Source: an uncultured SAR86 cluster bacterium (GTDB lineage: Bacteria > Pseudomonadota > Gammaproteobacteria > Magnimaribacterales > D2472). Taken from it: 41,165 bases of DNA. Position 1 is the stretch's first letter. Every line of letters begins with the position of its first letter. The translations under genes and the position numbers were made by a program. A model generated the notes under the pieces. That model had not been told where the DNA came from. It ran no database searches and was given only the letters and a program-made list of their open reading frames with translations. This document shows, one piece after another, positions 2,247 through 29,546 of the stretch. The stretch lies in assembly GCA_902557575.1 (NCBI GenBank), contig CACEAR010000007.1:1-41165 (forward strand), written 5' to 3'.

Positions 2247-2782
2247 TTAATAAAATACTTAACGTCATAACTCTTTCAAGAATCTTATGTGCAATATTAA
2301 TTTATTTGATCTTATATTTAGAAAGTAACTACTCTATAGCTTTATTTTTATTTTTTATTGCTTCTTTTTCTGACTTTCTTGATGGCTATCTTGCAAGAAA
2401 AACAAACTCCGAAACCGTATTGGGAGAAATTCTAGATCCTATAGCTGATAAATTATTAATTGTATTTGTTCTAATTGGTTTAAGTATAAACCTTGATAGT
2501 TTTTTAATTGGCTTTATTTCAGCTGTTATTATTTCAAGAGAAATTTGGGTCGCTGCTCTAAGAGATATCAACTCTAGAAATAACCAATCTGATAAAACAA
2601 AAGTGACTTTTTTAGCAAAGACAAAAACTGCAATACAGATGTTGTCGATATTAATGTATCTTTTCGGTCTAACAATTAATAATATGATGATCCTTTTCTT
2701 TGCTGATATTATTCTTATAATCGCCCTTTTAGTTACTATTCAGACAGGTTTTCAATATACAATTTCAACTTTTAAGAAATGA
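2243..2782 (+). CDS. pgsA: CDP-diacylglycerol--glycerol-3-phosphate 3-phosphatidyltransferase
   Basis: This inner-membrane enzyme makes phosphatidylglycerol phosphate from CDP-diacylglycerol and glycerol-3-phosphate. The 179-aa length is typical. The CDP-alcohol phosphotransferase signature DGx2ARx8Gx3Dx3D is complete at about residues 47-70 (DGYLAR...GEILDPIAD), and several hydrophobic membrane segments surround it. Placement directly after uvrC is the classic gammaproteobacterial arrangement. Both ends overlap neighbours through ATGA (uvrC upstream, the isomerase gene downstream). Confidence 0.95.
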   Translation: MINKILNVITLSRILCAILIYLILYLESNYSIALFLFFIASFSDFLDGYLARKTNSETVLGEILDPIADKLLIVFVLIGLSINLDSFLIGFISAVIISREIWVAALRDINSRNNQSDKTKVTFLAKTKTAIQMLSILMYLFGLTINNMMILFFADIILIIALLVTIQTGFQYTISTFKK

Positions 2783-3747
2783 GCAAAGATAGAAGAACAA
2801 TAGACATAGCTAGGCAGGTTATTGACGATGAAGTGGAGGCACTAATTGGTTTAAAAGACTACATTGATGAAAACTTTGAAGCAATCATAGATATTATTTG
2901 CGAATGTAAGGGTCGTCTAATTTTTACAGGAATCGGAAAGTCAGGACATATTAGTAAAAAGATTTCTGCCACCTTATCCAGTACTGGGACTAGCTCTTTC
3001 TTTATGCATTCTACTGAGGCTTTTCATGGAGATCTTGGAATGATTCAAAGTGATGATATTGTAGTTGCAATAAGTTATTCAGGTGAGACAGAGGATCTTC
3101 TTAAAACAATCCCAATTATAAAAAAGTTAGGCTGCTCTGTAATAGGCGTCTCAGGAAATGATAAATCGACTTTATCAAAGATTTCCGATTACCATCAATT
3201 AATAAAAGTTGAAAAAGAAGCATGCCCGCTTGATCTTGCTCCAACTTCAAGTGCTACAGCAACTCTTGTTTGGGGAGATGCTTTGGCAATCTCTTTAATG
3301 AACAAAAAAGATTTTAAGCCTGAAGATTTTGCAAAGTCACATCCTGGAGGTACTTTGGGAAAGAGGTTACTTCTTTCCGCAAAAGATGTAATGGTATCAG
3401 GGGATGAAATGCCGATCATTAATCATAATGAACTCTCCAAAGATGTCATAAAAACTATTTCTGAAAAGGGCATGGGAGTTACATTTGTAAAAGGTCAAGA
3501 TGATAAGGTTATTGGTTTAATAACTGATGGAGACGTAAGAAGAGCCATTGATAAATCAAATTATTTTTTTGATATGACTGCTCAAGATTTTATGTGCAAA
3601 AACTTTATTTCAGTTAATCCTGATGATTTAGCTTCTGAATGTTTAAATATTATGGCTGAGAAAAAGATCGGCTGTCTTGCTGTCATGCATGATAAAGAAT
3701 TAATCGGAGTTATTAATCAGAAAGACTTGGTAAAACTTGGTATCTAA
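2779..3747 (+). CDS. kdsD: Arabinose-5-phosphate isomerase (KdsD/KpsF family)
   Basis: Predicted to interconvert ribulose-5-phosphate and arabinose-5-phosphate, the first step toward Kdo in LPS. The 322-aa product matches the family (E. coli KdsD 328). The SIS sugar-phosphate domain has TGIGKSGH around residue 50, HSTEAFHGDLGM near 80-92 and SYSGET just after. Two CBS domains occupy about 205-322. It overlaps pgsA by ATGA and the next gene by TAATG. A KdsB-like cytidylyltransferase lies at 12678-13400; whether both serve one pathway is open. GutQ-type paralogues have the same architecture, so the exact role is a family-level call. Confidence 0.92.
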   Translation: MSKDRRTIDIARQVIDDEVEALIGLKDYIDENFEAIIDIICECKGRLIFTGIGKSGHISKKISATLSSTGTSSFFMHSTEAFHGDLGMIQSDDIVVAISYSGETEDLLKTIPIIKKLGCSVIGVSGNDKSTLSKISDYHQLIKVEKEACPLDLAPTSSATATLVWGDALAISLMNKKDFKPEDFAKSHPGGTLGKRLLLSAKDVMVSGDEMPIINHNELSKDVIKTISEKGMGVTFVKGQDDKVIGLITDGDVRRAIDKSNYFFDMTAQDFMCKNFISVNPDDLASECLNIMAEKKIGCLAVMHDKELIGVINQKDLVKLGI

Positions 3748-4539: not shown

Positions 4540-4542
4540 TTT

Positions 4543-4616
4543 GGCTGGGTGGCAGAGTGGTCATGCAGCGGACTGCAAATCCGTGTACGCCGGTTCGATT
4601 CCGGCCTCAGCCTCCA
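4543..4616 (+). tRNA. tRNA-Cys (GCA)
   Basis: A 74-nt cloverleaf with encoded CCA. The seven-pair acceptor stem is GGCTGGG with CTCAGCC, including one G-T pair, followed by discriminator T as expected for tRNA-Cys. The anticodon loop CTGCAAA gives GCA. The T-arm is CCGG-TTCGATT-CCGG. The order uvrC-pgsA-...-tRNA-Cys-...-tRNA-Leu(UAA) mirrors the E. coli cysT-leuZ cluster, but tRNA-Gly is absent here. Confidence 0.96.
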
Positions 4617-4620
4617 TATT

Positions 4621-5469
4621 ATGAAAGTAGGAATAATTGGTCTTGGATTTGTTGGTAAAGCTCTTCAAAATGGGTTAACAGATCAGGTAGAGGTGCTTGG
4701 CATTGATCCGAAAATAGGTACTGAAGTTATCGATTTAGTTAGCTTTCAGCCTAACTTTATTTTCATTTGTGTTCCTACTCCAATGAATAATGATTTTTCA
4801 CAGGATTTAAAGATTTTAAATGATGTCCTAAAAAAAATTTCTTCCTATGAATTATCCTGCCCACTTATTTTAAAAAGCACAGTGTTGCCTGAGCATTTAA
4901 TAGAAATAGAGAAATCTTTCCCAAATATTATTTTCAATCCTGAATTTTTAAGAGAGAAACATGCCGAAGAGGACTTCATAAAATCAGATATGATTATATT
5001 TGGTGGCAACAATGACTATTCAAGAAAAGTTTCTGATTTCTTTAAGAAATATACTTTATGCGAGTGCGAAGATCATACCTTTACTGATCTTATTTCTGCG
5101 TCATTAATTAAGTATTCAATAAATTCATTTTTAGCAACTAAAGTGATTTTCTTTAATGAGCTTTATAGGGTATTTGAATTATCAGGAACTACAAAAAGTT
5201 GGAGCAGTTTTATAAAAATTATTAATGAAGATTCCAGAATAGGATCTTCCCACATGGATGTTCCTGGTCATGATGGTAGATTTGGTTTTGGAGGCGCATG
5301 TTTTCCAAAGGATTCTAATGCATTGGTGACTTATGCAAAAAGCAAAGGTATTGATATGCACCTCTTAAATACTGCAATAAATATTAATAATATTATTAGA
5401 GCACAGTATAATGCTCCAACTACCAGAGAAATAGAACAGAATATAGATTTTAAAATAAAAAAAAGTTAA
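4621..5469 (+). CDS. Short UDP-glucose/GDP-mannose dehydrogenase family protein
   Basis: Members oxidise a nucleotide sugar to the uronic acid with two NAD+. The N-terminal Rossmann motif is GLGFVG (residues 7-12). NPEFLREKHAEEDF is the family signature, and GGACFPKD carries the catalytic Cys227. At 282 aa it ends soon after the central helical domain; the C-terminal UDP-sugar-binding domain of standard Ugd (390-450 aa) is absent. The frame is open upstream into the tRNA, but ATG 4621, just after the tRNA CCA end, gives the correct N-terminus. It lies between two tRNA genes. Possible roles are a compact dehydrogenase or a nucleotide-sugar reductase-like variant; the substrate is unknown. Confidence 0.85.
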   Translation: MKVGIIGLGFVGKALQNGLTDQVEVLGIDPKIGTEVIDLVSFQPNFIFICVPTPMNNDFSQDLKILNDVLKKISSYELSCPLILKSTVLPEHLIEIEKSFPNIIFNPEFLREKHAEEDFIKSDMIIFGGNNDYSRKVSDFFKKYTLCECEDHTFTDLISASLIKYSINSFLATKVIFFNELYRVFELSGTTKSWSSFIKIINEDSRIGSSHMDVPGHDGRFGFGGACFPKDSNALVTYAKSKGIDMHLLNTAININNIIRAQYNAPTTREIEQNIDFKIKKS

Positions 5470-5481
5470 CGATTTTTGTCT

Positions 5482-5568
5482 GCCCGGGTGGTGGAATTGG
5501 TAGACACAAGGGATTTAAAATCCCTCGCTAGAAATAGCGTGCCGGTTCAAGTCCGGCTCCGGGCACCA
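5482..5568 (+). tRNA. tRNA-Leu (UAA)
   Basis: An 87-nt class II tRNA with encoded CCA. The acceptor stem is GCCCGGG with CCGGGC pairing. The anticodon stem AGGGA/TCCCT closes loop TTTAAAA, giving anticodon TAA. A long variable arm (CGCTAGAAATAGCG) identifies it as tRNA-Leu. It corresponds to leuZ of the E. coli glyW-cysT-leuZ cluster and marks the left border of the polysaccharide locus. Confidence 0.96.
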
Positions 5569-8831: not shown

Positions 8832-9295
8832 TGAGTTATATTCATCCAAAGTCTGATGTTGATGAGTGCTCAATTGGAGAGGGTACAAATATTTGGCAAT
8901 TTGTTGTTGTCATGAAAGGAGCAATTATTGGTTCGGATTGTAATATATGCGCCAATTCCCTCATTGAGGGCAATGTTAAAATAGGAAATAGGGTAACTGT
9001 CAAATCAGGGGTTTCGCTTTGGGACGGCATCATTGTTGAAAATGATGTCTTTATTGGACCGAACGCCACCTTTACTAATGATCTTTTCCCGCGCTCAAAA
9101 AAACATCTTGAATCTCATCCATCTACCATAATTGAGCAAGGGGCAAGTATTGGAGCAAATTCAACTATTCTTGCTGGAGTGAGAATTGGAAAAAAATCAA
9201 TGATTGGAGCAGGTGCAGTTATAGTTGAGGACGTTCCTGAGAATGCTGTCGTTGTTGGAAATCCAGGAAAAATTTTAAGGTACATAAAAGAATGA
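8831..9295 (+). CDS. Left-handed beta-helix acetyltransferase (FdtC/QdtC-like)
   Basis: Predicted to acetylate the 3-amino group of dTDP-Fuc3N or dTDP-Qui3N using acetyl-CoA. The 154-aa protein is built of hexapeptide repeats ([43 protein letters not shown]) and ends with [12 protein letters not shown]. The central [12 protein letters not shown] loop is typical of the sugar N-acetyltransferases next to FdtA/FdtB genes. Its position between the isomerase and aminotransferase genes, with overlaps on both sides, supports the assignment. Confidence 0.87.
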
Positions 9296-10395
9296 TAAAT
9301 TTTTTAGACCTTAAAGCTATAAATAAAAGAGATGAAAAAGATTTACAAATTGCTTTCAAAAAAGTTCTTGAATCTGGCTGGTATATTCAAGGAGAGTTTT
9401 TAAAAAATTTTGAAGATGAATATGCCGAATTTTGTGGAACTAAATATTGTATAGGAGTTGCAAATGGTCTTGATGCATTAATATTAACTTTAAAAGCTTG
9501 GTTAGAGCTTGGCTATATAAAATCAGGTGATGAGGTAATTGTCCCTGCAAATACATACATAGCAACAATTCTTGCAATATCAGCCAATAATTTAAAACCA
9601 GTTTTAGTTGAACCAGATGAAAAAACCTTTAACTTATCTTTGGAGGAAATAAAAAAGAATTTTTCGAAAAAAACTAAAGTTATCATCCCAGTTCACTTGT
9701 ATGGTCAATTATGTGAAATGGAGAAAATAATTGCCTTTGCAAAACAAGAAAATATTTTAGTCCTTGAAGATTCTGCTCAGGCGCATGGTGCAATTGAAGA
9801 TGGTATTAAAGCAGGAGCTTGGGGCAACGCATCTGCTTTTAGTTTTTATCCAGGAAAAAACTTAGGAGCACTCGGTGATGCTGGCGCGATTACAACTAAT
9901 GACAAGAATCTAAAAGAAATTTTGGAAACATTGAGGAACTACGGAAGCAACATTAAGTATAAAAATGAATATAAGGGATTGAATAGTAGATTAGATGAGC
10001 TCCAAGCAGCTTTTCTTTCAATTAAATTGAAAAGACTCGAGGAAGATAATATTTGCAGAAGACAAATAGCAAAAAGATATTCATCCGAGATTAAGAATAA
10101 TTTAATTCAGATATATACACATGAACAAGAAAACCATGTTTATCATTTATATGTTGTAAGAACGAAGTATAGACAGCAACTAATGAACTTCCTTAACAGA
10201 CATGAGATTCAAACATTAATTCACTACCCAATTCCTCCATATGAACAGAATGCATATAAAGAATTAAGAAATATCAAAATGCCAACAACGTCCCAAATAC
10301 ATCGAGAAATATTAAGTTTGCCTATAAGCCCGGTTATGAAACAAGATGAGGTTGAAAAGGTAATTAAGGCTTGCAATTCCTTTAATATTAGATAA
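9292..10395 (+). CDS. fdtB: dTDP-3-keto-6-deoxyhexose 3-aminotransferase (FdtB/QdtB-like)
   Basis: A PLP enzyme of the DegT/DnrJ/EryC1/StrS family. The 367-aa product begins with the [11 protein letters not shown] opening common in this group. PLP-contacting blocks are [27 protein letters not shown] and [16 protein letters not shown], where Lys189 should form the Schiff base. The C-terminal [11 protein letters not shown] is also typical. With the isomerase and acetyltransferase it completes a dTDP-3-acetamido-3,6-dideoxyhexose pathway. Whether the sugar is Fuc3NAc or Qui3NAc depends on the isomerase, so the symbol is provisional. Confidence 0.9.
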
Positions 10396-10420
10396 AGATT
10401 GCAACAATTATCTAATAAAC

Positions 10421-10684
10421 ATGGCTACTAAAATACTTGATTGCACTCTAAGAGATGGGGGATATTACAATAATTGGGACTTTAAAAAAGACCTTGTTAA
10501 AGAATATCTTGAAGCAATGGCAGTTTCTAAAACTGATTTTATAGAGCTTGGATTAAGGCAATTTAAAAATGAATCCTTCCTAGGAGCTCATGCTTACACT
10601 ACAAATGACTACCTTAAAAGATTAGATCTTCCTAAAGGTCCAAAATATGGGGTAATGGTGGATGCAAAAAACCATTCTCAGTGA
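10421..10684 (+). CDS. HMGL-like (DRE-TIM) aldolase, N-terminal fragment before a frameshift
   Basis: Codes for the first strands of a DRE-TIM metallolyase barrel: LDCTLRDGGYYNNWDF at residues 6-21 holds the DxTLRDG motif with its metal-binding Asp and catalytic Arg, as in 4-hydroxy-2-oxovalerate aldolase. The frame runs into a stop at 10682 just after GVMVDAKNHSQ. The next reading frame carries the rest of the same barrel. The break is at a run of six A (10666-10671): removing one A reads through without a stop into the C-terminal fragment. It is therefore one broken gene, a base-call error or a programmed slip, not an independent small protein. Confidence 0.8.
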   Translation: MATKILDCTLRDGGYYNNWDFKKDLVKEYLEAMAVSKTDFIELGLRQFKNESFLGAHAYTTNDYLKRLDLPKGPKYGVMVDAKNHSQ

Positions 10685-12020
10685 AGATAGACCTCATGCA
10701 GAAAGCATTGATTTACTTTTCAAAGAAGCAAAAAATGAAAAAATATCTCTTGTAAGAGTTGCTGCTCATTTTAAAGAAGTAGATTCATGTCATGAAATGT
10801 TAATAAGGTTAAAAGAAAAGGGTTTTATTGTGGGCTTAAACATAATGCAGGCATCTCTCAGGTCAACACAAGAAATACAAGAATTATCAAAAAAAATATC
10901 ATCATGGGATTGTATTGATGTTGTTTACTTTGCAGACTCCCTAGGATCGATGTCACAAAATGATATAGAAGAAGTTTATAGAGCTATCGCAAAGCACTGG
11001 AAGAAAGATATTGGTTTCCATTCCCACAATAATATGGGGCAGGCTTTAACAAATGTAAATGCTGCTCTAGATATTGGTTGCAACTGGATTGATGGAACGG
11101 TAACAGGAATGGGAAGAGGCGCAGGAAATGCTGCAACAGAATATTTATTTTTAGAAAAAAGAATTAAAAGAGATGACTATGATCCTAGCCCACTATTTAA
11201 TTTAGTAAGAAATCATTTTCTTGAAATGAAACAAGAATGTGGATGGGGGGCATCTATTCCTTACTACATTGGTGCATTGAACAATGTTCATCCTACATAT
11301 GTTCAAGAACTCTGCAAAGATACAACAATAAATGAGGAATTCATTCCAAAAATCATTCAAGATTTAGGTCAGTTACAAAATCCAAACAGTTTTAATCAAG
11401 AAAAACTTGAAAGAGTTAAGTCTAAGACCAGTAAAGATATGGATATTGATCTAATTGAAGGCGAGTCCATTTCTGGTTTTATGCAAAACAAAGAAGTGCT
11501 TATAGTCGCGCAAACTGAATCATCTTTATCATTTAAAGAAGCAATCCATGATTATATAAAGAAAAAAAAGCCAATTGTGGCATCAATTAATCAACCAAAT
11601 CTGGATCTAGACATTGATTATGATTTCGTATTTATTACTCATAACGAAAAATTTCGAGAAGATGAAAATAAATATAAAAATGATAAAAATAACTTTATAG
11701 CTCCAAAAAAACTTTTTATTAATTCTTCTCTAAATATTGCTTATGATTATGGAATTCAAATCTCAGAAAATAGGTTTGAATATAATGAAACATATGCTTC
11801 CATACCTTTTAGGATAACAGTTGCATATGCAATAGCTTTTTGCATGCAAGCAAAAGCATCAGAAATAAATCTTGTTGGATTCGGTGGCTTCGATCTTGAT
11901 GATCCTAGACAAAAAGAAATGCAAGAATTTCTAAGTATACTTTCCAAAAATAAAATAAATCTTTTTTCCTTAACTCCTACTACTTTTACAATTAAAGAAA
12001 AATCAATATATGCCATCTAA
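10662..12020 (+). CDS. HMGL-like (DRE-TIM) aldolase with C-terminal Rossmann-like domain, main fragment
   Basis: Continues the barrel begun at 10421. Residues up to about 190 include FHSHNNMGQAL with the metal-binding His-x-His and GRGAGNAATE. DRE-TIM aldolases of this type join or split pyruvate-like units and aldehydes. From about residue 265 a separate domain begins (EVLIVAQ...KKKKPIVASINQP), resembling Rossmann-like MptE/DUF115-type folds; its role is unknown. The ATG at 10662 lies inside the frameshift overlap and would omit the TLRDG motif, so this fragment alone should be inactive. The 11-base overlap with the HAD gene and the nearby KdsB-like gene suggest synthesis of a 3-deoxy-2-keto sugar acid (inference). 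Confidence 0.78.
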   Translation: MQKTILSEDRPHAESIDLLFKEAKNEKISLVRVAAHFKEVDSCHEMLIRLKEKGFIVGLNIMQASLRSTQEIQELSKKISSWDCIDVVYFADSLGSMSQNDIEEVYRAIAKHWKKDIGFHSHNNMGQALTNVNAALDIGCNWIDGTVTGMGRGAGNAATEYLFLEKRIKRDDYDPSPLFNLVRNHFLEMKQECGWGASIPYYIGALNNVHPTYVQELCKDTTINEEFIPKIIQDLGQLQNPNSFNQEKLERVKSKTSKDMDIDLIEGESISGFMQNKEVLIVAQTESSLSFKEAIHDYIKKKKPIVASINQPNLDLDIDYDFVFITHNEKFREDENKYKNDKNNFIAPKKLFINSSLNIAYDYGIQISENRFEYNETYASIPFRITVAYAIAFCMQAKASEINLVGFGGFDLDDPRQKEMQEFLSILSKNKINLFSLTPTTFTIKEKSIYAI

Positions 12021-12681
12021 AAAAAATGAATTTATTCATATTTTTGATTGTGATGGCGTTATTTTAGATTCAAACCAATCAAAAGTATCTGCTGTTGAAG
12101 AAACATTAAAATCTTTTAATGCTCCAAAAGAATTTATTGATTGGGCTAAAGTGGAGTTCAGAAATAATTTTGGAAGAACTAGGTTGAATCATTTTGAGGT
12201 TTTTAGTGATTATAAAGGGATAGAAGGATATATTTTTAATAAAGAAAATATTGAGAAAGCCTTAAAAACTTATTCATTATTTGTAAAAAAAATTTATAAG
12301 AAATGTGATGTTATAGAAAGCACTTACAATTTTATTTTTAGTTTGCCATCAAGTGATTCAATATATGTTGTATCTGCTTCAGATCAAGATGAGTTAAGAG
12401 ATATTCTACCTAAGAAGCTATGTAAGATTAGGAAGGAGAATATTTATGGAGGACCTATGGGGAAAATCGAAAATATAAACTATATAAAATCAAGTCTTGG
12501 AGTAAAAGATTACTTTTTTTATGGTGATTCTGTTCAAGATGCAAGAGCTGCATTGGCAACTGAAATTGAATTCATTGGCTTAACAAATTTCTCAGCTGCC
12601 CCTCATTTACTTACAAACTTTTGTGAAAATAACTCCTTGAAGTATTATGAGTCCATTGATAGTTTACTTATAAGCAAATGA
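12010..12681 (+). CDS. HAD-family phosphatase
   Basis: A 223-aa HAD hydrolase. Motif I is FDCDGVILDSN near residues 13-23, with nucleophile Asp and general-acid Asp. Motif II is VVSASD, and motif IV is GDSVQDARAA. A helical cap separates motifs I and II. Lying between the aldolase and KdsB-like genes, with overlaps on both sides (11 bases, then ATGA), it probably removes phosphate from an aldolase product or a precursor before CMP activation, as KdsC or sialic-acid-9-phosphatase do. It is not KdsC by sequence (KdsC is shorter and capless). Confidence 0.82.
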   Translation: MPSKKNEFIHIFDCDGVILDSNQSKVSAVEETLKSFNAPKEFIDWAKVEFRNNFGRTRLNHFEVFSDYKGIEGYIFNKENIEKALKTYSLFVKKIYKKCDVIESTYNFIFSLPSSDSIYVVSASDQDELRDILPKKLCKIRKENIYGGPMGKIENINYIKSSLGVKDYFFYGDSVQDARAALATEIEFIGLTNFSAAPHLLTNFCENNSLKYYESIDSLLISK

Positions 12682-13400
12682 ATGGAGCAGTTATAATACC
12701 CGCTAGATTTGAATCTTCTAGGTTTCCTGGAAAGCCACTAATAGATATTCATGGTAAACCAATGATAAGGCATGTTTATGAGAAGTGTGTTCAAGCTGTT
12801 GGTAGACAAAATACAATTATTGCTACAGATGATAATAAAATTAAGGAAATTTCAAATTCATTTGGTGCCAAGGTTGTCATGACTTCCTCAGACTGCCTAA
12901 CCGGAACAGATAGAATTGCAGAAGCAAATAAGATTTTGGGATTAGATTTTGTTATCAATGTTCAAGGCGATGAACCAATGACAAAGCCTGATGATGTAAA
13001 AATGGTATACCGCTTTATGGAAAATAATTCTGAGAATGTGCTTAATTGCTTTTGCAAAATCAAAAAAGATGAAGTTGTAATGGCTAGTGTCCCAAAAGTA
13101 GTAGTTTCTGAAACAAATAAACTTATTTATATGTCAAGGTCAGGAGTGCCATTCAATAAAAATCTCAAACCGCAAGCAAATTATAAGCAAGTTTGTATAT
13201 ATGGTTTTAGCAAAAAGCACTTGGAATTATTCTCTTCAAATCCAGGTAAGACAATGAATGAGAAATATGAAGATCTCGAGATTTTAAGATTTTTAGATCT
13301 TGATATTCCAGTTCAAATGTTTGAAGTTGAGCCAGGAGGCATCGCTGTTGATACTCCTGAAGATTTGGAGAGAGTTTTGGTTGCAATGGGCAGCAATTGA
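12678..13400 (+). CDS. 3-deoxy-ulosonate cytidylyltransferase (KdsB-like)
   Basis: CMP-Kdo synthetase family. The 240-aa protein has PARFESSRFPGKPL near the N-terminus for CTP binding, IIATDDNKI, and NVQGDEPM with the Mg-binding Asp. GGIAVDTPEDLERV closes the protein. It activates Kdo or a Kdo-like acid. Housekeeping KdsB is possible because kdsD lies at 2779-3747, but tight coupling to the aldolase and HAD genes suggests a dedicated sugar acid of the surface polymer. Confidence 0.87.
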   Translation: MNGAVIIPARFESSRFPGKPLIDIHGKPMIRHVYEKCVQAVGRQNTIIATDDNKIKEISNSFGAKVVMTSSDCLTGTDRIAEANKILGLDFVINVQGDEPMTKPDDVKMVYRFMENNSENVLNCFCKIKKDEVVMASVPKVVVSETNKLIYMSRSGVPFNKNLKPQANYKQVCIYGFSKKHLELFSSNPGKTMNEKYEDLEILRFLDLDIPVQMFEVEPGGIAVDTPEDLERVLVAMGSN

Positions 13401-14368: not shown

Positions 14369-15415
14369 ATGAAAATAGTAAATGTTACAGGAGTTGGAAA
14401 TGCTGGAAAGGGAGCCGTTGTAGACCTCTTAAGAGAATTTAATAGTATTTGGGCACCAAGATCAGATTTTGAATTCGATTTTTTTAGAGTATATGGAGGC
14501 ATGTTTGATTTCTTGAATACTATAGAAAATGATAATTCTTCATGTAGAACAGATATTGCAATTAAAAGAATTAAAAAGCTAACAAAGCAAATGGGTTCAG
14601 ATCCCAAAAGATTCTCAATTTCTGGAAACTTATTATCAACTGGTCAAAGATATGACAGACTTTTTGACGGGAAGTTCATAGAAATTACAGAGGAATTTTT
14701 AGAAAGTCTTATCTGGAATAGATATCATGCATATTGGCCATATGAAAGAATTGATAGGGGTGGGTTGCACAATTTCCAGCAAAAAGTTTTTGAAAAGCTT
14801 GGCCTCAATCAATTTTTAGACTCTAAGATTCACTTGATTGATAATACCGATATTAATGATAAATTTAATAAATATATTTCTGATCTATTTTCAATACTGC
14901 TTAATGAAAAACAATCTATAGTTGTTATGAATAATTTTGTGGAGCCTTACAACATTAATTCAATGCTTAGATGGTTTCCAGAATCAAAAAGTATAGCTGT
15001 TATAAGAGATCCCAGAGATATTTTTATATCTGGTTTGAGCGGTAAACAAATTAAAAAATCTGTAAGACATCTCCTTCCAAAAGAGAACGATGGAAAAGAA
15101 AAATCTTTTCTTGCTACAAATAATATTGAGCTATTTATAGAGAGATATAAAAGGAATATGGATGCATTGCATAAAACAGAATACTCAGAACAGTTAATTA
15201 TTAGATTTGAAGATCTGATTTTCAAATATGAGCAAACCAAAGAGTTGATTATTAACTTTATTGAAGTTAAAAAAAATAAAGGTCCCAGTACAAGTAGATT
15301 CTTTTTCCCCGAAAAAAGTAAACAGAATTCCCAGCTATGGAAGAATTATGATGATCCTGAGGGAAGCATAGAACTTATTGAAAAAGAATTAGGTAATTAT
15401 CTTTATTACGAATAA
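14369..15415 (+). CDS. Sulfotransferase-like protein
   Basis: A 348-aa P-loop protein. The N-terminal VTGVGNAGKG (residues 6-15) is a P-loop-like 5'-phosphosulfate-binding segment. IAVIRDPRDIFISGL, with RDPRD at 213-217, matches the 3'-phosphate-binding motif of PAPS-dependent sulfotransferases, and IIRFEDL follows as in that fold. It could sulfate a sugar of the surface polymer; the APS-kinase-like gene at 3747-4154 is a possible link to PAPS supply. The overall family is distant from well-studied carbohydrate sulfotransferases, so the substrate and even the donor are inferred. Confidence 0.7.
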   Translation: MKIVNVTGVGNAGKGAVVDLLREFNSIWAPRSDFEFDFFRVYGGMFDFLNTIENDNSSCRTDIAIKRIKKLTKQMGSDPKRFSISGNLLSTGQRYDRLFDGKFIEITEEFLESLIWNRYHAYWPYERIDRGGLHNFQQKVFEKLGLNQFLDSKIHLIDNTDINDKFNKYISDLFSILLNEKQSIVVMNNFVEPYNINSMLRWFPESKSIAVIRDPRDIFISGLSGKQIKKSVRHLLPKENDGKEKSFLATNNIELFIERYKRNMDALHKTEYSEQLIIRFEDLIFKYEQTKELIINFIEVKKNKGPSTSRFFFPEKSKQNSQLWKNYDDPEGSIELIEKELGNYLYYE

Positions 15416-18346: not shown

Positions 18347-19594
18347 ATGCATATTAAAACAGAAGAATTACCAAAAAAGATTTATTTCTGTTTTCCCTAT
18401 AGAGGGGTTGGCGGGGTCTCGTTCCTATTTTTAAGAGTTGCTAAGCAAGTTAATAAAATATTAGGCATCAAACCATTTTTAATTGATTTTCACGATGGAT
18501 ATATGTCAAAAAATGTTGATAACCGCTTTGCAGAAATAGAAATCTATTCTGAAAAAGATCCTTTATTTATAGAAGAAAACTCAGTAATAGTTTTTCAATC
18601 AATGACCCCATGGACTATTTTTTCAAATCTTAAAATACCTAAGAATACCAAAGTCCTATTTTGGACATGTCATCCCCATAACTTTATTCCAAACTCTCCT
18701 TTTTCAGAGAAGATTTCTAAATTATTTCTTAAAAATTATTACAATAAATCTAAAAAATTTGTTCAAAATTTAGTTAATAGTGGCGGACTATTTTTTATGG
18801 ATCAAGAATGCCTCTTAAGAACTCAGGAAAATCTTGATTTAAGTATAAATAATCCAATGTTCCTTGCAATTCCTTCAGCTCCGAGCTCTAAAAACTTTTT
18901 CAATGATAGAGATCAAAATGAGATTATAAAGGTAAACCTTTGCTGGGTCGGAAGACTTGTTGACTTTAAGTACTATATTTTAAAAAAACTGATTCTAGAT
19001 CTGGAAAAAGTAAGCCCAAGTTTAATTTATGATTTTCAGATAACAATTATTGGAGATGGTCCATTTAAAAAGACCTTGAAGAAGGTTTCATCTAAAAGCA
19101 AAAATATTTCCTTTAAATATATTAACAGTATGGAAGAGCAAGGCCTACATTCTTATTTAAAAGAAAATGTAGACATCTTATTTGCAATGGGGACATCTGC
19201 TCTCGAGGGAGCTAGATTAGGAATCCCGACAGTTCTTTTAGATTATTCTTATTCTGAAGTGAATTTCCAATATAAATACAAGTGGTTATTTGAAAGAGAT
19301 GGAAGCACCCTTGGTAAGAAGGCTGTAAAAAGTGAAAAAGTTGATACAGAACCAAACTCTTTAATCAGGATCATAAATGCATACGTAAATAACAGGAAGA
19401 ATATTTCAGATGAGACCTATAAATATTTCCAAAAGAATCATGACATTGATATGATCACAGCAAATTTATTAAACATAATGGTAAACTCAGAGAGTTATTG
19501 GACGAATTTACAAAATGAGAGTTTTCTTAAAAAGGGATTTATTTATAAAATATATTTAAAATTAAAGATTATTAGGAAAAAATTTATACGATGA
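18347..19594 (+). CDS. Glycosyltransferase, GT-B fold (GT4-like)
   Basis: A 415-aa protein with two Rossmann-like halves. The C-terminal half has LCWVGRLVDFK, then ITIIGDGPFKKTL and MGTSALEGARLGIPTVLLD, the donor-binding pattern of GT4 enzymes (the second Glu of the EX7E motif region). The N-terminal half has RGVGGVSFLFLRVAKQ for acceptor binding. It should add one sugar to the lipid-linked repeat unit on the cytoplasmic face. The stop overlaps the rfbF start (ATGA). Confidence 0.8.
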   Translation: MHIKTEELPKKIYFCFPYRGVGGVSFLFLRVAKQVNKILGIKPFLIDFHDGYMSKNVDNRFAEIEIYSEKDPLFIEENSVIVFQSMTPWTIFSNLKIPKNTKVLFWTCHPHNFIPNSPFSEKISKLFLKNYYNKSKKFVQNLVNSGGLFFMDQECLLRTQENLDLSINNPMFLAIPSAPSSKNFFNDRDQNEIIKVNLCWVGRLVDFKYYILKKLILDLEKVSPSLIYDFQITIIGDGPFKKTLKKVSSKSKNISFKYINSMEEQGLHSYLKENVDILFAMGTSALEGARLGIPTVLLDYSYSEVNFQYKYKWLFERDGSTLGKKAVKSEKVDTEPNSLIRIINAYVNNRKNISDETYKYFQKNHDIDMITANLLNIMVNSESYWTNLQNESFLKKGFIYKIYLKLKIIRKKFIR

Positions 19595-20370
19595 AAGTTT
19601 TAATTCTAGCTGGCGGTCTCGGGACAAGATTAAGTGAGGTAACTGACCTAATTCCAAAACCTATGGTCGAAATTGGTGGTAAGCCTATTTTATGGCACAT
19701 CATGAAGATTTATTCCTCATATGGTTTTAATGAGTTCATAATTCTGCTTGGATATAAAGGGTATTTAATAAAGGAATATTTTGCTAATTATTTTCTTCAT
19801 CAAAGTGATGTGACTATCTCTTTAGAAGATAACAAGATCGATGTAATTAATAATACTAGCGAGCCTTGGAAAATTACTCTTCTAGATACTGGACAAAAAA
19901 CAATGACTGGTGGAAGGGTGAAACAAGCTGAAAATTTTATTGACGGTAAACCCTTTATGCTTACTTATGGAGATGGGGTTGCTGACATAGATATTAATAA
20001 GTTAGTTGAATTTCATTCTAGTCACAATGGTGCCATGACAATGACTGCTGTCCAGCCTGATGGAAGATTTGGGACATTTGAAAGTGATGATAGTGGAGTA
20101 GTCAAATCTTTTCTTGAAAAGCCTCGTGGAGATGGATCCTGGATAAATGGAGGATTTTTTGTATGTGACCCAAAAGTTTTTGACTATATAGAAAATTCTG
20201 ATGATTCTGTTTTGGAGCAAAGACCTCTCCAAAAGCTTTCATCTGACAAAGAGCTTTTCAATTACAGGCATTCTGGCTTTTGGAAGTGTATGGATACTTT
20301 GAGAGACAAACATGACCTTGAGAAAATGTGCGCGGATAACAATGCTCCTTGGATTAGTTGGAATCACTAA
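19591..20370 (+). CDS. rfbF: Glucose-1-phosphate cytidylyltransferase
   Basis: Makes CDP-glucose, the entry to CDP-dideoxysugars. The 259-aa length matches RfbF (257). The opening ILAGGLGTRLSE with LIPKPMVEIGGKPILWHI is diagnostic; TYGDGVADID and GRFG...FLEKP follow, and GFWKCMDTLRDKHDLE closes the active site. RfbG follows directly, which confirms the CDP pathway. Confidence 0.95.
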   Translation: MKVLILAGGLGTRLSEVTDLIPKPMVEIGGKPILWHIMKIYSSYGFNEFIILLGYKGYLIKEYFANYFLHQSDVTISLEDNKIDVINNTSEPWKITLLDTGQKTMTGGRVKQAENFIDGKPFMLTYGDGVADIDINKLVEFHSSHNGAMTMTAVQPDGRFGTFESDDSGVVKSFLEKPRGDGSWINGGFFVCDPKVFDYIENSDDSVLEQRPLQKLSSDKELFNYRHSGFWKCMDTLRDKHDLEKMCADNNAPWISWNH

Positions 20371-20381
20371 ATATCTTTTTT

Positions 20382-21482
20382 ATGTTTAATAATGTTTACA
20401 AAAATAAAAAAGTTTTAATAACTGGTAATACAGGATTTAAAGGCTCATGGCTGACATGTTGGTTACTAAGTCTCGGTGCTGATGTTACTGGAATCTCAAA
20501 AGATATTCCTTCGAACCCCTCAATGTTTGAAGATTTAGATTTAGAATCAAAAATTAATTACCATAATTCTGACATTAGAGACCTTAATGAGTTATCGCGC
20601 ATTATAAATCAAGAAAAACCAGAATTTTTATTTCATCTTGCAGCTCAACCAATAGTATCTACTTCTTATTCTGATCCGGTTGAGACAATTTCCTCTAATG
20701 CAATTGGGACAATGAATATCCTAGAAACTCTTAGGCATGCTAATTTTAATTGCGCTGCTGTTTTAATAACAAGTGATAAAAGTTATGACAATGTTGAGTG
20801 GGTTTGGGGGTATAAAGAGAGTGATAAAATGGGGGGGAAAGATATTTATAGCGGCTCAAAGGGAGCTGCTGAGCTTATTATAAAATCATATTTTCACTCT
20901 TTTTTTGAAAATAATGAATCTTTGCCTCGCATTGGTGTTGGAAGAGCAGGAAACGTTATAGGCGGAGGAGATTGGGCGAAAGATAGGATTATAGTTGATG
21001 CAGTTAGATCATGGTCAAACTCAAAATCTGTAAAGATTAGATGCCCAGATGCTACAAGGCCATGGCAGCATGTTCTAGAACCATTATCTGGATACCTCTC
21101 CCTTGGCCAAAACCTCTACTCAACAAAAGATAATGTTGGGGAAGCTTACAACTTTGGACCAAGAGCTGAACAAAATAGAACTGTAAAAGATTTACTTGAT
21201 ACAATGTTGATTCACTGGAAAAAGGATTTACCTAAGAGACCTTATGTTATTTCAGACACTTTGCCATTTAAAGAAGCAAGTCTTTTAAAATTAAACTGCG
21301 ACAAAGCTTTATCGCACCTTAAATGGGACGCAACTTTAGAATATGATCAGACAGTTAAAATGACATCTGAATGGTATTCATCATACTTTAATGATGATAT
21401 TGATATGTATAAGAAAACAATAGATCAAATCTCTGAATATGTTGCTCTTGCATCAAAGAGGGACTCAAGCTGGACACTCTAG
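20382..21482 (+). CDS. rfbG: CDP-glucose 4,6-dehydratase
   Basis: Forms CDP-4-keto-6-deoxyglucose. The extended SDR has TGNTGFKGSWL (NAD motif in the form specific to RfbG), HLAAQPIVSTSY, TSDKSYDN and YSGSK with Tyr and Lys of the active site. DATRPWQHVLEPLSGYL is also characteristic. The start is taken at ATG 20382, giving 366 aa; the frame is open back to a TTG at 20358 inside rfbF, but family members begin where this ATG does. Confidence 0.94.
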   Translation: MFNNVYKNKKVLITGNTGFKGSWLTCWLLSLGADVTGISKDIPSNPSMFEDLDLESKINYHNSDIRDLNELSRIINQEKPEFLFHLAAQPIVSTSYSDPVETISSNAIGTMNILETLRHANFNCAAVLITSDKSYDNVEWVWGYKESDKMGGKDIYSGSKGAAELIIKSYFHSFFENNESLPRIGVGRAGNVIGGGDWAKDRIIVDAVRSWSNSKSVKIRCPDATRPWQHVLEPLSGYLSLGQNLYSTKDNVGEAYNFGPRAEQNRTVKDLLDTMLIHWKKDLPKRPYVISDTLPFKEASLLKLNCDKALSHLKWDATLEYDQTVKMTSEWYSSYFNDDIDMYKKTIDQISEYVALASKRDSSWTL

Positions 21483-21919
21483 AAAAAAAACAACCTTCAC
21501 TCACTCAGCTTAAAAAGATTGAAGTTAGAGAAGGTGATGTAATGCATGCCTTAAGAAATTATGAAGAATCTTTTAATGGCTTTGGGGAAGCATATTTTTC
21601 TTCAGTCAAAAAAGATATGGCTAAAGGATGGAAGATGCACAAAGAAATGACTTTAAATTTGATCGTTCCTGTTGGTAATATAAGATTTATAATCTTAAAT
21701 AAGAATACAAATAATAAATCAATTGTTAGTCCTCTTATTGATGTAACTTTAGGAGAGAATAATTACTCAAGGTTAACTGTTCCTCCAGAGTATTGGGTAG
21801 CATTTAAGGGTGTAGAAACTGAAACTAACATTTTATTAAATATAGCTGATATTCCACATGATCCTAATGAATCTGATAATAAGGACTTAAACTATTTTAA
21901 AGTTGAGAGTTTTCTATGA
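21470..21919 (+). CDS. RmlC-like cupin, probable nucleotide-sugar epimerase/isomerase
   Basis: A cupin related to dTDP-4-dehydrorhamnose 3,5-epimerase: FGEAYFSSVKKDMAKGWKMHKEMTLNLIVP contains the conserved GW.MH block, and IDVTLGENNYSRLTVPPEYWVAFKG follows. The first ATG is 21542 (125 aa), but it falls inside the conserved opening GDVMHALR. The frame remains open upstream and reads LTQLKKIEVREGDV, expected for the family. A CTG at 21470 preceded by AGAGGGA (21457-21463) gives 150 aa, the usual length, so a non-AUG start overlapping rfbG is proposed. It lies between rfbG and an aminotransferase gene and probably acts on CDP-4-keto-6-deoxyglucose. Confidence 0.78.
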   Translation: MDTLEKKQPSLTQLKKIEVREGDVMHALRNYEESFNGFGEAYFSSVKKDMAKGWKMHKEMTLNLIVPVGNIRFIILNKNTNNKSIVSPLIDVTLGENNYSRLTVPPEYWVAFKGVETETNILLNIADIPHDPNESDNKDLNYFKVESFL

Positions 21920-23055
21920 ACAATGAGTTACGCCTTTCTAAATCATGCATAGGTGAAGAAGAAAAAAAAGCTGTAAAAAAAGTTTTAGATATAGGCTTCT
22001 TTGGGATGGGTAAAGAAGTAAAAGACTTTGAAAATGAGCTGTCAAACTTTTTTGGTAGAAGAGCTACATGTGTTGTAAATGGAACAGCCGCTCTTCAACT
22101 TGCGTTGCAGGCTGCAGGAATAGAGAGAGGAGATGAGGTCCTTGTTCAATCAATTACATATGTCGCAAGTTTCCAATCGATAACCGCAAATGGTGCAAAA
22201 CCTATAGCATGTGATATTGATTCTGATTCACTAACAATCGATTTAGAAGATGCTAGAAAAAGATTAACTTCTAAAACAAAGGCTATTATGCCAGTTCATT
22301 ATGCTGGTGGTGTTGGTAATTTAGATGATATATACAAGTTTGCTAAAGATAATAATCTTAGAATAATTGAAGATGCAGCCCATGCATTTGGAACACTATA
22401 TAAGGATAACTTGATAGGTTCTTTTGGTGACATAAGTTGTTTTAGTTTTGATGGAATTAAAAATATTACATCAGGCGAGGGAGGCTGTATTGTCTCAGAT
22501 GATGAAGATGTTATTAAATCAATACAAGATTTTAGGCTTCTGGGAGTTCAGGGAGACACTCATAAAAGATTTTCTGGAGGAAGAAGTTGGGATCCGGATG
22601 TTAAGAATCAAGGTTGGAGGTACCATATGAGTGATTTGATGGCTGCTATCGGAAGAGTTCAACTCGCAAACTTTAACTACCATAAAAAGTCGAGACAAGA
22701 TTTGGCAAAAAAATATTTTGAACTTGTAAAAAGCATTCCTTCAGTCTCTGCTTTTAATCACAACTATGATGAAGTAGTTCCACATATTTTTGTGGTAAAG
22801 ATTGCTGAAAATATAGACAGAAAAAAACTTATTGAACTGTTAAAGAAGGAGGGAATTCCAGCAGGTATTCATTACAAGCCAAATCATACACTTTCATTTT
22901 TTAATCAAACACACATTAGTTTGAAGAAAACTGAGGAGATATTCCCTAAAATCCTCACTTTACCCTTACATCCTGATTTAACAAAGGAAGACATTACTTA
23001 TATATGTAGCAAACTTGAAGAGGCTTTAAAGAATGCAAAAGAATCCTCTAATTAG
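21916..23055 (+). CDS. DegT/DnrJ/EryC1/StrS aminotransferase
   Basis: A 379-aa PLP-dependent sugar aminotransferase. Blocks include NGTAALQLAL, VQSITYVASFQS, EDAAHAFGT and FSFDGIKNITSGEGG with Schiff-base Lys182. The Lys rules out the His-bearing RfbH dehydrase that normally follows RfbG in 3,6-dideoxyhexose pathways, and no ferredoxin-type partner is present. It therefore probably aminates the CDP-4-keto-6-deoxy sugar, giving a CDP-4-amino-4,6-dideoxyhexose (inference). ATGA overlap with the cupin gene; the next gene starts 23 bases before its end. Confidence 0.88.
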   Translation: MNNELRLSKSCIGEEEKKAVKKVLDIGFFGMGKEVKDFENELSNFFGRRATCVVNGTAALQLALQAAGIERGDEVLVQSITYVASFQSITANGAKPIACDIDSDSLTIDLEDARKRLTSKTKAIMPVHYAGGVGNLDDIYKFAKDNNLRIIEDAAHAFGTLYKDNLIGSFGDISCFSFDGIKNITSGEGGCIVSDDEDVIKSIQDFRLLGVQGDTHKRFSGGRSWDPDVKNQGWRYHMSDLMAAIGRVQLANFNYHKKSRQDLAKKYFELVKSIPSVSAFNHNYDEVVPHIFVVKIAENIDRKKLIELLKKEGIPAGIHYKPNHTLSFFNQTHISLKKTEEIFPKILTLPLHPDLTKEDITYICSKLEEALKNAKESSN

Positions 23056-27431: not shown

Positions 27432-29546
27432 ATGAAATCTCTAATACAAAATTATTCTAATGGTAAAATTTCATTAGAGGAAATCCCAACGCCTAAGACT
27501 TCAGGAAGTCAAATACTTGTGAAGAACTCATACTCCGTAGTAAGTATTGGTACAGAAGGTTCAATGGTAAAACTTGCAAAAAAATCAATCATCGGCAAGG
27601 CTCTTGCTAGGCCTGACCTTGTCAGGAGGGTCTTTCAAAAGCTTTCTCAGACAAGTTTAAAAGAAACAACTCAGATTGTATTAAATAAGCTTGATACTCC
27701 AATTAATCTGGGATATAGCGCTTCAGGAGTTGTAGCGGAAGTAGGTCCAAAAGTTACAGGGTATAAAAAAGGAGATTTCGTTTCAATAATTGGATCAGGT
27801 TTTGCAACTCACTCTGAATATAATCTAGTTCCAGCAAGTATGTGTTCAAAGATAGAGGAAGAATTTTTAAAGGAGTCCTCATTTGGCATGCTTGGGTGTA
27901 TTGCAATGCATGCTACTAGACAATTTAGGTTTAATTTAAATGGAAAAAACATTGCCATCCTAGGCTCAGGTCTGTTGGGGAATCTTGCAACCCAAATTCT
28001 TAACTCCTATGGCGCACAAACATTCTCTTATGATCCGTCAGAAGAAAAATCCGAAGTTCTTCTAAATATGGGATTTAATAGCTCATCCGATAGCAGTAAT
28101 TTAGAGAAGTTTGCAAAAAAATTGAGGTTTGGAGGTTTTGATGGTGTTTTGTTGGCGTGTGCTGTTAATGATAATAAGCCTCTTCAACAAGCCCTTGATA
28201 TATTGAGAGTAAATGGAGAAATAGTAATTATGGGAGTTGTGGATATTAAGCTTGATAGGAATGAAATGTGGGAAAAGCAAGCAAGCATAATTGTTTCTAA
28301 AGCGGGAGGTTTTGGAGCACTAGATGATGACCATTATTCATCCAAAGAAAATCATTCACTTGACTCAATAAAATGGACTGAAAAAAATAATTTAGATGAG
28401 ATTAATCGACTTATAAGATCAGGTAGGATTAACATAAAAAAAATTATTACTTCAGAAATCGATTTCAATACAGCCGTTAATACATATGAAAAACTGATAA
28501 AAGGGGAAATGAATAACGACCTTGGAATTATCTTTTCATATGACAATACAGAAAGTAAACCAAAAAAACTCTTTGAAGAAAAAGTTAAGACTGATAAAAA
28601 TGATATCTGTCTTGGGGTAATTGGGGCAGGTAACCATGCTGTTTCAAATTTCCTTCCTGAACTTAAAAAGATAAATGGATCTCATAAACTAAAAATGCTG
28701 GCAACAAATACTCCTGTTAAAGCAGACCATTATTCAAAAAAATTTAATTTTGAGAGCGCAACCTGTGACAAAAAAGAATTAATTAATAATCCAAACATAA
28801 ACAATATTATTTCACTTGAAAGACATTCTAATCACTTTGAAACTATTAAAGAGTGCATCTATAACAAAAAAAATCTTTTAATAGAAAAACCTTTGGTTTC
28901 AAATAGAAGTGAATTCCTCGAACTAAAAGAAATACTTAAAAATCAAAAAGAAATTCCAAAAATTATGGTTGGCCATAATAGACGCTATATTTCTTCTGTT
29001 AACTACTTAAGACAGGCTATTGATCAAAATAATCCAGGAATCCTAAATTTATGCATAAATGCTGGAAAAATTGAAAAAAGTCATTGGCTTTATGATGAAA
29101 AAGAAGGAGGAAATAGAGTTGTTGCTGAAGGAAGTCACTTTATTGATTTAATAAAGTTTATTACAAATTCTGATATCGTCTCTCTTAGTTCATCTAATAT
29201 GTCTACATCTGACTATTTAGAAAAAGAGAATTTTATTGTAAGTTTTAAACATAAAAATGGCTTCTTATCTAATTTAATATATACATCTATAGGATCACGC
29301 AACATGCCAAGGGAAACTATAGAAGTTTTTCAAGATGGTGAATATTTTTCTTTAATTGATTTTAAAAAATATAAACATTTTGGTAGCTCCTCATCAAAAA
29401 AAAGTTTTACATACGATCTAGGTTTTAAAAAGCAAATAGAAAACTTCTTTGCTTATGCAAACGATAAGCACTTGTCATCATCAATCGATGAAGAGATGCA
29501 TACAATGGATATTGTTCTTAAGATTTCAGAGGAACTAAACAATTAA
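27432..29546 (+). CDS. Bi-domain oxidoreductase: medium-chain dehydrogenase fused to Gfo/Idh/MocA
   Basis: A 704-aa fusion. Residues ~1-370 are a medium-chain dehydrogenase: GYSASGVVAEVGPKVTGYKKGD, then the Rossmann motif AILGSGLLGN near 176-185. The zinc ligands of alcohol dehydrogenases are not evident. Residues ~390-704 are a Gfo/Idh/MocA domain: LGVIGAGNHA, then LIEKPLVSN with the catalytic Lys of EKP, GHNRRY and EGSHFIDLIKF. Such fusions occur in exopolysaccharide loci, often beside heparinase II/III-type genes, which are absent here. It probably oxidises or reduces an activated sugar or a sugar acid; the substrate is unknown. Its stop abuts the next start. Confidence 0.88.
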   Translation: MKSLIQNYSNGKISLEEIPTPKTSGSQILVKNSYSVVSIGTEGSMVKLAKKSIIGKALARPDLVRRVFQKLSQTSLKETTQIVLNKLDTPINLGYSASGVVAEVGPKVTGYKKGDFVSIIGSGFATHSEYNLVPASMCSKIEEEFLKESSFGMLGCIAMHATRQFRFNLNGKNIAILGSGLLGNLATQILNSYGAQTFSYDPSEEKSEVLLNMGFNSSSDSSNLEKFAKKLRFGGFDGVLLACAVNDNKPLQQALDILRVNGEIVIMGVVDIKLDRNEMWEKQASIIVSKAGGFGALDDDHYSSKENHSLDSIKWTEKNNLDEINRLIRSGRINIKKIITSEIDFNTAVNTYEKLIKGEMNNDLGIIFSYDNTESKPKKLFEEKVKTDKNDICLGVIGAGNHAVSNFLPELKKINGSHKLKMLATNTPVKADHYSKKFNFESATCDKKELINNPNINNIISLERHSNHFETIKECIYNKKNLLIEKPLVSNRSEFLELKEILKNQKEIPKIMVGHNRRYISSVNYLRQAIDQNNPGILNLCINAGKIEKSHWLYDEKEGGNRVVAEGSHFIDLIKFITNSDIVSLSSSNMSTSDYLEKENFIVSFKHKNGFLSNLIYTSIGSRNMPRETIEVFQDGEYFSLIDFKKYKHFGSSSSKKSFTYDLGFKKQIENFFAYANDKHLSSSIDEEMHTMDIVLKISEELNN

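Follow-up and report, generated by a model that had tools for sequence, protein, structure and literature searches.

In the literature that we searched, it is relatives of KdsA or NeuB that make the CMP-activated sugar acids (Kdo, sialic acids and Kdn), with PEP as a substrate. A 2010 paper named Kdo as the sole sugar besides Neu5Ac to be activated by CMP coupling (PMC2901514). The Kdn module of Bacteroides thetaiotaomicron (Q8A710-Q8A712) consists of a Kdn-9-P synthetase, a Kdn-9-P phosphatase and a CMP-Kdn synthetase, with dephosphorylation preceding CMP transfer (PMC6200933).

The locus described here, from an uncultured SAR86 cluster bacterium, carries a trio of genes coding for an aldolase, a phosphatase and a CMP-sugar-acid synthetase. 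We consider it fairly probable that this trio constitutes a self-contained pathway to a CMP-activated 2-keto-3-deoxy sugar acid other than Kdo, destined for a surface polysaccharide. No description of the trio or of such an aldolase route was found in the literature searched, a search outside which most subscription journals lay.

The trio in the SAR86 window

Profile matches to Wzz, epimerases, aminotransferases, glycosyltransferases and an export protein reveal a surface-polysaccharide locus in the window, that is, in the whole stretch of 41,165 nucleotides that was analysed. Three packed and co-directional genes at 10421-13400 code for an HMGL-like aldolase, a HAD-IA phosphatase and a KdsB-like cytidylyltransferase. 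An earlier note on this DNA had delimited the same set, and its coordinates and family assignments (PF00682, PF13419 and KdsB-like) were confirmed. The tight overlaps that it described measure 11 bases between the end of the aldolase and the HAD gene and 4 bases between the HAD and KdsB genes. The features are the following:

10421..10684, + strand: N-terminal piece of the aldolase, an open frame of DRE-TIM (HMGL-like) type whose metal and active-site strand reads RDGGYYNNWDF
10666..10671, + strand: A6 run, the frame-change site at which the aldolase is interrupted, placed by five intact homologues
10656..12020, + strand: remainder of the aldolase, a barrel with HxHxN and GMGRGAGN motifs followed by the C-terminal domain (PF00682; 80-sequence alignment)
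11442..12017, + strand: C-terminal domain of the aldolase, weakly matching the MptE-like/GT42-like Rossmann type in sequence
12010..12681, + strand: HAD phosphatase (PF13419) with the four HAD motifs kept
12678..13400, + strand: KdsB-like CMP-sugar-acid synthetase (PRK13368, tree and residue switches)

Elsewhere in the window, a compact UGD-like gene (about 287 amino acids) lies between tRNA-Cys (4543-4616) and tRNA-Leu (5482-5568), where the polysaccharide locus begins. A sulfotransferase-like gene (14369-15415) lies two genes past the trio, and sulfotransferases are found near the Leisingera trio too. A nucleotidyltransferase, a CDP-glucose 4,6-dehydratase (467.6 bits) and an aminotransferase encoded at 19591-23055 suggest a CDP-sugar branch. 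Finally, 27432-29546 encodes a 704-amino acid protein in which zinc-type alcohol dehydrogenase domains precede a GFO/IDH/MocA oxidoreductase domain.

The earlier note treated the aldolase as one gene and overlooked a one-base frame change. The frame of 10421-10684 stops and another frame carries on from about 10668, the switch being placed at the A6 run by five out of five intact homologues, with the frame 2 alignment extending up to 10666-10669. N-terminal positions that are at least 90% conserved in the 80-sequence alignment are unchanged in the window copy on both sides of the break, which points to a break that is either recent or a sequence error. The frame change may thus represent a recent loss or an error, and the window copy may be inactive. 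Two further aldolase genes are split, at different places (L068, 8986-10592; L112, 8965-10311). A programmed frameshift is not favoured, since one base would have to be skipped and the broken copies of L068 and L112 split elsewhere. Genome-wide frameshift noise was also considered and rejected, as the one further gene that looked suspicious and was checked (UGD-like, 4540-5469) proved to be a single complete, compact frame.

The aldolase does have the extra C-terminal domain reported for it, as do full-length homologues, and the domain resembles the MptE-like family. PF01973 is matched by 23 of 57 homologues at E values up to 0.1 (best E 2.4e-6), below its curated cut-off; one member reaches 27.9 bits where 34.6 would be needed for membership. 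The domain also matches GT42 sialyltransferases very weakly, and its PDB matches are weak. Judging from these resemblances, it probably serves in regulation or docking by binding a nucleotide or a CMP-sugar. The window copy is without the GPS motif and one Asp, both of which are kept by nearly all homologues in the residue table.

The phosphatase matches PF13419 (HAD_2) with 29.3 bits and belongs to the HAD superfamily by its motifs I-IV (D13, D15, S122, K152, D173 and D177), whose conservation was followed over 61 cassette HADs. With all four motifs present, it is probably an active phosphatase.

In the SAR86 genome itself, the cassette could be a decaying remnant without function, an explanation that we find plausible but on balance doubtful, and one that would be compatible with the proposed pathway for the family as a whole. 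Decay would account for the frame change and for the losses in the C-terminal domain, and no homologue was present in the nine genomes of the same genus that were searched. Set against decay are the unchanged N-terminal positions flanking the break, the intact HAD and KdsB genes with all their motifs, and the fact that assembly errors of one base are frequent in A-runs.

The synthetases and the recurrence of the trio

The window KdsB matches PF02348 with 151 bits and NCBIfam PRK13368 with 294 bits, above the cut-off of the latter. It falls inside a 46-member clade of cassette KdsBs (support 0.943) which includes neither the 27 housekeeping KdsBs nor the capsule protein KpsU. Cassette KdsBs are members of the CMP-2-keto-3-deoxy acid synthetase superfamily by their conserved CTP/Mg core (P8, R10, K19, GTxR, QGDEP, R154 and D225), and they keep the invariant Arg (E. 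coli R157) as well as the Gln equivalent to E. coli Q98, a sugar ligand (PMC2901514). The substitutions H181Q, V142P, R164K, G183C and Q211I are each found in 96-100% of the clade members; KpsU retains H181, R164, Q211 and G183, residues that are invariant in housekeeping KdsB. All five positions are presumably located in the sugar pocket of the E. coli structure, with H181 and Q211 as contacts. These changes at conserved residues suggest that the product of the cassette is probably not Kdo. The earlier note had allowed that the window gene might be the sole housekeeping CMP-Kdo synthetase. This identity is ruled out by the separate clade, the systematic residue differences and a second KdsB in the host genome (C5:68457), which scores 191 bits versus 158 for the window copy.

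GTDB genomes, when scanned, yielded 80 loci, nearly all of which encode this two-domain aldolase. Over 83 homologous loci of several phyla the trio was seen to recur, with linkage in Gammaproteobacteria, Alphaproteobacteria, Bacillota, Bacteroidota and cyanobacteria. In a genome of the same class, a full-length aldolase homologue adjoins a NeuA/PseF-type synthetase and a HAD, and on Leisingera plasmids the aldolase, KdsB and HAD genes are consecutive. No E. coli relatives were found by blastn; phage copies were dismissed, their matches being partial and weak.

The neighbourhood search that had been proposed bears out a conserved linkage. At offsets +1/+2 from the aldolase, a CMP synthetase occupies 60 of 158 positions versus 13 of 673 once the distance reaches four genes (Fisher p 2e-35), and a HAD occupies 50 of 158 versus 7 of 673 (Fisher p 6e-32), on loci that are not fully independent. 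Among the 76 loci with enough sequence, both partners are at most six genes away in 56 and at most two genes away in 47; L061 and L073 also have synthetase and HAD and were dropped by the overlap filter. The absence of a nearby HAD or synthetase in about a quarter of the eligible loci counts against the proposed pathway. No neighbour family besides the trio is constant across loci, which suggests an aldehyde drawn from central metabolism.

The synthetase partner alternates between KdsB-type and NeuA/PseF-type, with at least 10 switches on the tree of the aldolase N-terminal domain (67 tips; random expectation 19), and such swaps occur even between close Halomonas relatives. This switching points to CMP activation of a 2-keto-3-deoxy acid as the shared property.

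The earlier note saw no PEP-dependent synthase. This holds for the window stretches examined and, as far as NeuB is concerned, for the whole host genome, in which PF03102 has no match. It does not hold for KdsA, which is missing from the cassette and encoded elsewhere in the genome (C1:565558, 377 bits, cut-off 314). A KdsD-like isomerase at 2779-3747 of the window was assigned to the ordinary Kdo pathway. KdsA is above its cut-off in 42 of the 47 surveyed carrier genomes, the host included. Together with the membership of the synthetases in the KdsB or PseF/NeuA superfamilies, this would fit an arrangement that we judge unlikely, in which the synthetase activates Kdo or a nonulosonic acid from ordinary KdsA or NeuB while aldolase and HAD make or modify another sugar of the same polymer. 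Such an arrangement is at odds with the clade formed by the cassette KdsBs and their changed residue set, not common to KpsU, and with the interchange of KdsB-type and NeuA-type enzymes next to the same aldolase. It also sits badly with two Gram-positive carriers, Rossellomorea aquimaris (KdsB-type trio) and a Bacillus MAG (NeuA-type), in which KdsA and a true NeuB are both missing, absence from the MAG being the weaker evidence. In each of these two genomes, the weak matches of the KdsA and NeuB models fall together on a single DAHP-synthase-like ORF, and the trio has glycosyltransferase, polymerase and nucleotide-sugar genes around it. NeuB is also missing from 10 of the 18 carrier genomes with a NeuA-type trio.

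Candidate pathway and the aldolase reaction

In the pathway that we favour, the divalent-metal DRE-TIM aldolase would form the enolate of pyruvate and add it to a phosphorylated aldehyde of central metabolism. The resulting product would be the phosphate of a 2-keto-3-deoxy acid, the aldolase thereby replacing the PEP-dependent KdsA or NeuB. The HAD would then strip the phosphate, the KdsB-type enzyme (NeuA/PseF-type elsewhere) would transfer CMP from CTP to the sugar acid, and a glycosyltransferase of the locus would consume the CMP-sugar. The pathway draws on the observed linkage, the intact catalytic motifs, the separation of the cassette KdsB from the housekeeping form and the two carriers without KdsA and NeuB. 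From there we infer the chemistry, the order of the steps and the identity of the sugar, and it is the analogy with the Bacteroides thetaiotaomicron Kdn module that suggests a phosphorylated intermediate.

With 71 bits against PF00682 (cut-off 29), the aldolase belongs to the HMGL-like DRE-TIM metallolyases, and all or almost all members share the metal ligands and enolate Arg (Arg11, Asp12, His200 and His202). Its best characterised matches are pyruvate-specific 4-hydroxy-2-oxovalerate aldolases, whose metal ligands, Arg and GMGxGAGN motif are kept. From these similarities, pyruvate aldol chemistry is our best guess. The 4-hydroxy-2-oxovalerate type proposed in the earlier note was too narrow, the enzyme not being DmpG proper: TIGR03217 (DmpG) gives 90.8 bits, for the longer aldolase piece only, against a cut-off of 286, and a Tyr occupies the position of DmpG His21 in the aldolase family. 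We take His21 to be the catalytic base of DmpG, and the Tyr was counted against the pathway since the chemistry could differ. The closest structure to the N-terminal domain is 3dxi, a 'putative aldolase' (E 6e-47 with L097 of Shewanella abyssi). No assayed enzyme of the two-domain family was found in the literature searched, which also counts against the pathway.

Several variants of the family were weighed on the same side. In L044 and L045, an HpcH/HpaI pyruvate aldolase, so named from its sequence, is encoded inside the trio. L063, L081 and L085 form a variant group in which an extra HpcH/HpaI-like aldolase (likewise named from sequence) is accompanied by a ferredoxin-like protein and a different HAD, and in which the KdsB lies outside the main cassette clade. 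In the Pelagibacter loci L078, L079 and L111 (around 8986-12300), the aldolase lies beside a B12-radical SAM-like gene with no adjacent CMP synthetase. These HpcH/HpaI and Pelagibacter variants suggest that the aldolase family may have more than one use.

The Tyr at the His21 position and the HpcH/HpaI neighbours, which occur in two different lineages, would suit an aldolase that catalyses a DRE-TIM reaction of some other kind, whether Claisen-type condensation or retro-aldol step, giving the acid or its precursor, with HpcH/HpaI performing the pyruvate aldol where it is present. We regard this as improbable, as a second aldolase is absent from most loci and the best characterised matches, together with the retained metal ligands, Arg and GMGxGAGN motif, point to pyruvate. 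A purely catabolic aldolase, which the earlier note had named as fatal to its proposal, is ruled out by the polysaccharide-synthesis context.

The core idea of that note, a CMP-sugar-acid route relying on an aldolase, is partly supported. It withstood its own refutation tests and emerged strengthened, with the corrections that the window aldolase is frame-broken and that the genome encodes KdsA. Beyond the proposed pathway, we tentatively envisage, at slightly less than even confidence, a widespread, undescribed class of bacterial surface sugar acids made independently of PEP. A metal aldolase would join pyruvate to a common phosphorylated aldehyde, recruited KdsB- or NeuA-type enzymes would carry out the CMP activation, and a CMP-sugar-sensing domain would be fused to the aldolase. 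If true, the pyruvate aldolase route would reach this class of glycan building blocks by another chemistry. It would do so in marine bacteria, including Marinobacter, Halomonas, Shewanella and Prochlorococcus, as well as in Gram-positive bacteria, and many 'kdsB' annotations in polysaccharide loci would be no sign of Kdo.

Comparison with known systems

At the level of single domains, the N-terminal part of the aldolase shares RDGGYYxNWDF with 3dxi, its closest solved relative, which has 320 amino acids, lacks the C-terminal domain and is known by structure alone. DmpG/BphI 4-hydroxy-2-oxovalerate aldolases have the metal-dependent DRE-TIM barrel, the metal ligands and the Arg in common with the cassette enzyme, which differs by its Tyr, its other C-terminal domain, its score far under the TIGR03217 cut-off and its occurrence in polysaccharide loci. 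The C-terminal domain shares with MptE-like/DUF115 and GT42 sialyltransferase domains the pattern GxGPS...N...GxDG, which we take to be that of GT42; here, in contrast, it is fused to an aldolase and its PF01973 match stays under the curated cut-off.

At the level of pathways, the Kdo route (KdsD-KdsA-KdsC-KdsB) likewise proceeds through a phosphorylated 2-keto-3-deoxy acid, a phosphatase and a KdsB-like CMP transfer. It differs in its PEP-dependent KdsA, absent from the cassette, whereas the cassette has a HAD of the HAD-IA type and a KdsB that forms a separate clade with changed residues. The Kdn module of Bacteroides thetaiotaomicron resembles the trio in its set of three enzymes, a synthase forming the C-C bond, a phosphatase (presumably of HAD type) and a CMP-ulosonate synthetase. 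The first step falls to a PEP-dependent NeuB-type synthase in that module, whereas the trio has a DRE-TIM metal aldolase instead.
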